NCBI GenBank assembly: GCA_963931925.1
Contig: OZ007572.1
Location: 23,112,730 to 23,176,729 of the forward strand
DNA: 64,000 bases
Direction: 5' to 3'
DNA from: Onchidella celtica
Taxonomy: Eukaryota > Mollusca > Gastropoda > Systellommatophora > Onchidiidae
The translations under genes and the position numbers were made by a program. The notes below the pieces were generated by a model. The model saw nothing but the letters and a program-made list of their open reading frames with translations, did no database searches and was not told where the DNA came from. This document shows, piece after piece, positions 14,225 to 57,982 of this stretch (the first letter of the stretch is position 1; each line of letters begins with the position of its first letter).

Positions 14225-14551
14225 TCACATAGTCTGTGCCGAGGTCATGCTTTGGAACCCTGACGTAGCTGTAGTTTCACTGCTGTTTGGGCTCTCTGTC
14301 TTCCCTTCCATGACTTCCAGTATTGGGAACGTTTCACTGTAGACCATTTTACTGTTGAGATAATCGGCACTAGCATATGCTTTGTTTTGATGATCTAATG
14401 ACTTGTTATAATACATGCTTGACTGATTGGAAGTTTGCTTCTTGTTCCTGTAAACAAATTCTACGGAAGTCATCTGATCATCCAGATCTTCTTTTGTAAC
14501 TGAAAGTGGTGTTGATGTGCGCATTCCGTGAGGATGGAGGTCAAGATACTC
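14225..14551 (-). CDS. RTK last coding exon: cytoplasmic tail
   Basis: Acceptor CTATTTTCAG at 14552-14561; stop TGA at 14227-14225. The exon starts EYLDLHPHG, as FGFR tails do (EYLDL). It then holds several tyrosines in acidic or polar settings ([30 protein letters not shown]) that could be phospho-docking sites. It ends [11 protein letters not shown]. The tail is not recognisable beyond EYLDL. Confidence 0.9.
   Translation of the reverse strand, partial: EYLDLHPHGMRTSTPLSVTKEDLDDQMTSVEFVYRNKKQTSNQSSMYYNKSLDHQNKAYASADYLNSKMVYSETFPILEVMEGKTESPNSSETTATSGFQSMTSAQTM

Positions 14552-57982: not shown

Follow-up and report, generated by a model that had tools for sequence, protein, structure and literature searches.

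A probable molluscan counterpart of the Aplysia receptor ApLRRTK, encoded by a very large gene with scattered LRR exons

The locus considered here lies in a window of 64 kb, meaning the whole stretch of DNA that was analysed (C6:23112730-23176729, in a genome of 1.14 Gb and 43 contigs), and raises the question of whether LRRs, Cys-rich modules of the Eph type and an FGFR-like tyrosine kinase are parts of one receptor and, if so, whether such a receptor is new. A preliminary description of the window had proposed a single reading frame of 18 exons and a novel-looking receptor tyrosine kinase architecture.

Motif searches assigned the gene to the minus strand, with NPWSCDCD at 39951, the Gly-rich loop at 25480, HRDLAARN at 19033, RPSFKQL at 14978 and EYLDL at 14551. 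Sixteen exons were placed in the window, between 57982 and the stop codon ending at 14225, and these join into a single frame with no inner stops and with AG/GT borders throughout, from the LRRs to the EYLDL tail. In order, they comprise three LRR exons, an LRR C-cap exon, three Cys-rich exons, a membrane exon and eight exons for the kinase and its tail. The LRR exons, each of phase 2-2, are LRR7 (57911..57982, 72 nt), LRR8 (43901..43969, 69 nt) and LRR9 (41732..41803, 72 nt), and are followed by the LRR C-terminal cap exon carrying NPWSCDCD (39795..39964) and by Cys-rich exons A (38508..38627, a frame-consistent join), B (37436..37579) and C (32481..32582), all of phase 1-1. The transmembrane exon (26453..26574) precedes kinase exon 1 (25387..25612), which encodes the juxtamembrane part, the Gly-rich loop GRGAFG and VAIK, kinase exon 2 (24746..24856, again a frame-consistent join), kinase exon 3 (21875..22083), with the hinge IVMEY and the kinase insert, and kinase exon 4 (18917..19039), with HRDLAARN and DFG. 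Kinase exon 5 (16837..16978) contributes the SPEA motif and C-lobe, kinase exon 6 (15995..16061) has 67 nt, kinase exon 7 (14916..15021) holds RPSFKQL, and the last coding exon (14225..14551) holds the EYLDL tail and a TGA stop at 14225-14227. All of these features are on the minus strand.

The outer limits given in the preliminary description proved exact, as an LRR exon starts at 57982 and the stop codon finishes at 14225, and the in-phase joining held for the exons of the window. The count of 18 exons was rejected, as 16 were placed, and so was a 5' end at 57982, since clear LRR exons go on upstream. Given the strand, the 5' part of the gene falls past position 64000, and examination of 140 kb upstream on the same chromosome added the seven minus-strand exons that the preliminary description had missed. 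These are four strong LRR exons of 72 nt and phase 2-2 (at 65252, 101762, 103467 and 105119, in numbering continued from the window), two weak LRR-like exons of 75 nt (at 106049 and 107112, together LRR1 and LRR2 of the model) and a first exon (167489-166312) with a hydrophobic, signal-like start and an end that reads as an LRR N-cap. The full model, read from genomic DNA without transcripts, has 23 exons and 1265 residues, ends in a single stop and extends over about 153 kb, 59 kb of which separate exon 1 from the LRRs. The locus is thus one very large gene, longer than the extent of 14225-57982 first proposed, with most of it held in the 64-kb window. Upstream of exon 1 and outside the window (171237-175338 in continued numbering), two long ORFs with Cys-knuckle and reverse-transcriptase features, as judged by eye, have the look of an LTR-type retrotransposon.

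The strength of the LRR exons was assessed among open candidates of 69, 72 or 75 nt between AG and GT, collected over 204 kb and ranked with a generic LRR score set by hand. The six best of 540 gene-strand candidates, scoring 20.3 to 52.3, were all exons of the receptor gene, with LRR7 at the top (52.3) and LRR8 at 29.0; the top score was 10.3 among 558 candidates of the other strand and 7.3 among 489 in one shuffle. LRR9, at 7.7, was outscored by three noise candidates on its own strand (11.3, 10.3 and 8.0) and is backed by its position, as it fits the gap between LRR8 and the C-cap in frame. LRR1 and LRR2 scored -10.3 and -8.0 and are the least sure exons of the model, and the frame stays open without them because both are multiples of three. 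The tally is therefore six strong LRR exons and three weak ones. No further convincing LRR exon was found between 57911 and 43969 in score-filtered scans for exons of 66-78 nt, of 141-150 nt, and of 60-300 nt with phase 2-2. Candidates for extra Cys-rich exons between Cys-rich exon C and the membrane exon were likewise rejected, those listed looking low-complexity or non-coding by eye, and a Pfam search at 0.01 with ten long ORFs from elsewhere in the window (from a total of 284 stop-to-stop ORFs) gave no match.

Long introns occur all along the gene, including one of 5.9 kb between Cys-rich exon C and the membrane exon, and the join is known here from genomic DNA alone, both of which would suit two neighbouring genes wrongly joined, one for a secreted or anchored LRR/Cys-rich protein and the other for a separate kinase receptor. 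We regard this as improbable. Eight junctions are phase-consistent (CysB/CysC, CysC/TM, TM/K1, K1/K2, K2/K3, K3/K4, K4/K5 and K7/K8) between exons that had been found by the look of their protein, with borders read by eye, unlike the LRR exons and kinase exon 6, which were sought by phase. The phases therefore match on both sides of the membrane exon, at CysC/TM and TM/K1. If unjoined, the kinase exons would be left without an ectodomain and the ectodomain without a membrane helix, whereas the joined order is that of an Aplysia receptor studied from a cDNA clone (PMC4200351).

The introns of the gene contain several repeats. A 137-bp unit that takes in the donor and 3' end of kinase exon 3 occurs in three tandem copies (21513..21934); the two extra copies, which are decayed and intronic, keep remnants of this exon end and might offer alternative donors. 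An array of 84 copies of the tetranucleotide TCCA (24907-25240) occupies part of the K1/K2 intron, and a 395-bp inverted pair with 97.5% identity (31561-31954 and 40350-40743) is divided between two introns. A dispersed repeat of about 340 bp was found in three copies that are 77-81% alike (43400-43737, 46961-47292 and 50339-50700), with more copies upstream of the window, inverted and up to 87.5% alike; it is SINE-like by look only. A 1.2-kb sequence at 44464-45665 has a 97% identical copy 133 kb upstream in the same region, and is either a recent mobile element or a duplication. Within 2.5 kb of an intron (51039-53577) lie four copies of about 470-510 bp, 91-94% alike, starting near 51042, 51510, 52462 and 53096.

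A Pfam search with the joined protein, as the preliminary description had suggested, recovered a tyrosine kinase (PK_Tyr_Ser-Thr, 3.7e-84, residues 869-1147), LRRs (LRR_8, 7.2e-31, in four stretches) and Ephrin_rec_like (PF07699, 6.9e-7), a family which we take to be GCC2_GCC3 renamed. The last of these matched in two stretches, involving Cys-rich exon B, the better of which (residues 745-779) corresponds to the end of exon B and exon C. Ig, FN3, ephrin-binding and SAM domains were absent among the 12 Pfam families listed at E<=1. Hydropathy analysis gave residues 793-811, encoded by the membrane exon, as the strongest hydrophobic segment and the single strong helix, and a hydrophobic N-terminus at residues 6-24 that is putatively signal-like. 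Together with the in-frame join, these matches bear out the proposed ectodomain order of LRRs, NPWSCDCD C-cap, three Cys-rich exons and membrane helix. The proposed kinase features were also recovered: the catalytic motifs, DFG included, are intact, with RPSFKQL in kinase exon 7 and EYLDL in the last exon. In the activation loop, as aligned with PDB entries, only the second tyrosine of the YY pair of FGFR1 is kept (HYKR). For the LRR part, the nearest solved proteins were the IGF acid-labile subunit, LRRC15, LRIG1, TLRs, LGRs and other general LRR proteins, with no Trk in the best 60 of 340 matches.

When the kinase was compared with PDB, 59 of the best 60 of 2540 matches were FGFR1-4; the remaining one was an EGFR entry, which owes its first rank to a chain with two copies of the kinase. 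Identities over aligned columns were 119/278 (43%) to FGFR1, 106/281 to RET, 106/286 to VEGFR2 and 90/263 to EphA2, and 79/216 and 85/248 to ROR and MuSK pieces from the same genome. A kinase tree of nine rows, whose groups were put to the test with an initial eight-row tree already known, grouped the LRR receptor kinase (LRRTK) with FGFR1, the FGFR of its own genome, RET and VEGFR2 (100/99), and in the best tree it fell outside FGFR+RET+VEGFR2 with modest support (85/87). A clade with RET was weakly rejected (p-AU 0.041). LRRTK and EphA2 are long branches in this tree, and joins between such branches may be false.

A placement within Trk or Eph, which the preliminary description had named as counting against its reading, was rejected by the tree in both cases. 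With Eph the receptor has in common the Ephrin_rec_like type of Cys-rich module, but the ephrin-binding, FN3 and SAM domains of Eph are not among its 12 families and a clade with EphA2 was rejected (p-AU 0.0032, EphA2 being a long branch). With Trk it has in common capped LRRs in the ectodomain of a receptor tyrosine kinase, and molluscan Trks with altered ectodomains are known, that of Lymnaea being described as lacking the two C2-type Ig domains and having a C1-type Ig-like domain instead (PMC2772990). Nevertheless, a divergent Trk of the Lymnaea kind is very unlikely, as the clade with TrkA was rejected (p-AU 0.00024), identity to TrkA was 88/277 (32%) against the 43% to FGFR1, and the Ig domains that follow the LRRs in Trk are not found here. 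The nine-row tree, with its long branches, thus supports a kinase that is FGFR/RET/VEGFR-like and neither Trk nor Eph.

A further reading is a true FGFR relative in which Ig domains were swapped for LRRs, as a 2014 paper proposed for Aplysia. FGFR1-4 dominate the best PDB matches, and four LRRTK kinase introns agree by reading in position and phase with those of the FGFR in the same genome (K2/K3 in phase 1, K3/K4 and K4/K5 in phase 0 and K6/K7 in phase 2), though one FGFR kinase intron is absent from LRRTK and the K1/K2 intron of LRRTK is absent from FGFR. The EYLDL tail is a further likeness, as human FGFR tails carry a motif of this type, and a clade of LRRTK with the two FGFRs was not rejected (p-AU 0.121). 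Conversely, the ectodomain has LRRs and Cys-rich modules where FGFR has Ig domains, the best tree has LRRTK outside the FGFR clade, and the genome has its own Ig-type FGFR. The swap is consequently a possible but unlikely origin, and the kinase first described as FGFR-like is nearest to FGFR in PDB but may or may not be an FGFR proper.

That separate FGFR was located at C1:49.23 Mb, where five kinase segments are 49-74% identical to human FGFR1. Upstream of it, a pair of ORF pieces, once joined, matched FGFR ectodomain structures at their last Ig domain (best 1.1e-30), with FGFRs as the best 21 of 60 listed structure matches; by these matches, the genome carries an Ig-type FGFR apart from the LRRTK gene. 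Pattern searches over 17.5 kb found no EYLDL-type tail in this FGFR, the last exon of which may lie further on.

Copy number was addressed with a query of 655 residues from the C-cap to the C-terminus, without the LRRs, for which only the best candidates were scored. At least 68 matches were scored, and those off the locus hit the kinase part; none among the 68 was an off-locus match to query residues 1-226, which cover the C-cap, the Cys-rich modules, the membrane exon and a few residues more. By its Cys-rich part the gene is therefore apparently single-copy. The two strongest kinase matches elsewhere in the genome were a MuSK and an apparent ROR (the latter by sequence reading), and a further FGFR/RET-like kinase exon was seen at C3:22.81 Mb. 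There were other kinase loci of some note: at C8:58.85 Mb (L003) and C1:93.29 Mb (L004), kinase domains lie within uninterrupted frames of 1880 and 1466 codons, respectively, and at C5:28.29, 28.31 and 28.35 Mb (L007, L008) two equal-scoring tyrosine kinase copies, with a third that resembles them in the same stretch of about 65 kb, look like a tandem expansion.

The same genome gave 33 matches to haemocyanin C-domains in three clusters on C7. There was no match in 14 control genomes, those named being prokaryotes, hence this carries little weight. One haemocyanin exon scored 104.5 bits with 3j32, 100.4 with KLH1, 84.1 with 8trz, 73.2 with 4yd9 and 72.4 with 6r83, chains which we take to be those of abalone (3j32), keyhole limpet (KLH1) and squid (4yd9 and 6r83). 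None of these chains is known to come from a heterobranch, and the scores make a gastropod no more than likely. AChBP-like genes gave ten matches, the best with 38% identity to the Lymnaea protein, a value that argues against Lymnaea as the host. Both the haemocyanin and the AChBP-like matches are signs of a mollusc.

A combination of LRRs, Cys-rich region and kinase has already been described in Aplysia californica as ApLRRTK (GenBank ADB97918.1, NP_001232922), so that the architecture noted in the preliminary description stands but is not new to science. ApLRRTK is described with a signal peptide, LRRs (the text counts nine, a figure legend eight) and a GCC2_GCC3 region; its only membrane helix spans S922-A944, and the FGFR-like kinase region, R945-T1393, is given a length of 448 aa. 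The receptor is present on neurons, its overexpression favours outgrowth in a way that depends on MAPK, CREB and the kinase domain, and serotonin-induced long-term facilitation is impaired by antisense treatment (PMC4200351). A later report cloned a true Aplysia FGFR in 2016, and its tree did not bring ApLRRTK nearer to FGFR than to RET, which argues against an FGFR with swapped domains (PMC5176290). The placement obtained here agrees with this. In a literature search of titles and abstract openings, these were the two papers treating the receptor, and other texts may mention it.

The present gene resembles ApLRRTK in its signal peptide (here a hydrophobic N-terminus), LRRs, GCC2_GCC3/Ephrin_rec_like region, single helix, FGFR/RET-type kinase, absence of an Ig domain and order of domains. 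The intracellular part, counted after 23 residues from S792, has 451 residues, as against 448 aa in ApLRRTK if T1393 is the C-terminus. The helix starts at about 792 here and at 922 in ApLRRTK, making the ectodomain of the model about 130 residues shorter, by a comparison of descriptions; the length of the model and the position and letters of its membrane helix suggest a host other than A. californica. The gene thus appears to add another case to a known kind of receptor and is very probably a mollusc counterpart of ApLRRTK, apparently single-copy, in which a signal peptide and a long N-terminal stretch precede seven to nine capped LRRs, three Cys-rich modules, one helix and a tailed kinase of the FGFR/RET/VEGFR group. 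This probable orthology is supported by the architecture, by the domain order, by an approximate agreement in length and by the group joined in the tree.

For Onchidella celtica, the most likely working is inferred to be as follows. A ligand would bind the LRR solenoid, the putative ligand site, and the Cys-rich stalk may set the spacing of a dimer, in which the kinases would phosphorylate each other and the tail tyrosines, that of EYLDL included. The tail tyrosines would then recruit effectors. The best candidate is the EYLDL tyrosine, just after the kinase, which occupies the place of the PLC-gamma docking tyrosine of FGFR1; a PLC-gamma step may follow. The signal may pass to MAPK and CREB and lead to neurite growth and synaptic strengthening, steps taken from Aplysia.

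In its treatment of other molluscs and Branchiostoma, the 2016 report states that orthologues of the ApLRRTK kinase have no ectodomain homology with ApLRRTK, and suggests that ectodomain and kinase may have become associated recently (PMC5176290). If the host is not Aplysia, the present gene is a counter-example to the ectodomain statement, and, were the host only distantly related to Aplysia, it would also contradict a recent joining of ectodomain and kinase. Elsewhere, ectodomains of this kind may have escaped notice, since the LRR exons are tiny and spread across more than 60 kb; exons of 72 nt set between long introns would account for such omissions. The gene provides the genomic structure of an ApLRRTK-type receptor in what is apparently a second mollusc, beside a normal Ig-type FGFR, and this coexistence, like the 2016 cloning of an Aplysia FGFR (PMC5176290), speaks against a replacement of Ig domains by LRRs in an animal that had no normal FGFR. 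We lean slightly towards the view that an LRR and Cys-rich ectodomain has been joined to an FGFR/RET-type kinase since early gastropod or mollusc history and was overlooked in other lineages, forming a distinct, conserved class of receptor tyrosine kinase beside FGFR, with an undiscovered ligand of its own. An association of this age, if true, would overturn the recent fusion in the Aplysia line that was suggested in 2016, and the gene marks an orphan neuronal receptor for which a ligand could now be sought.
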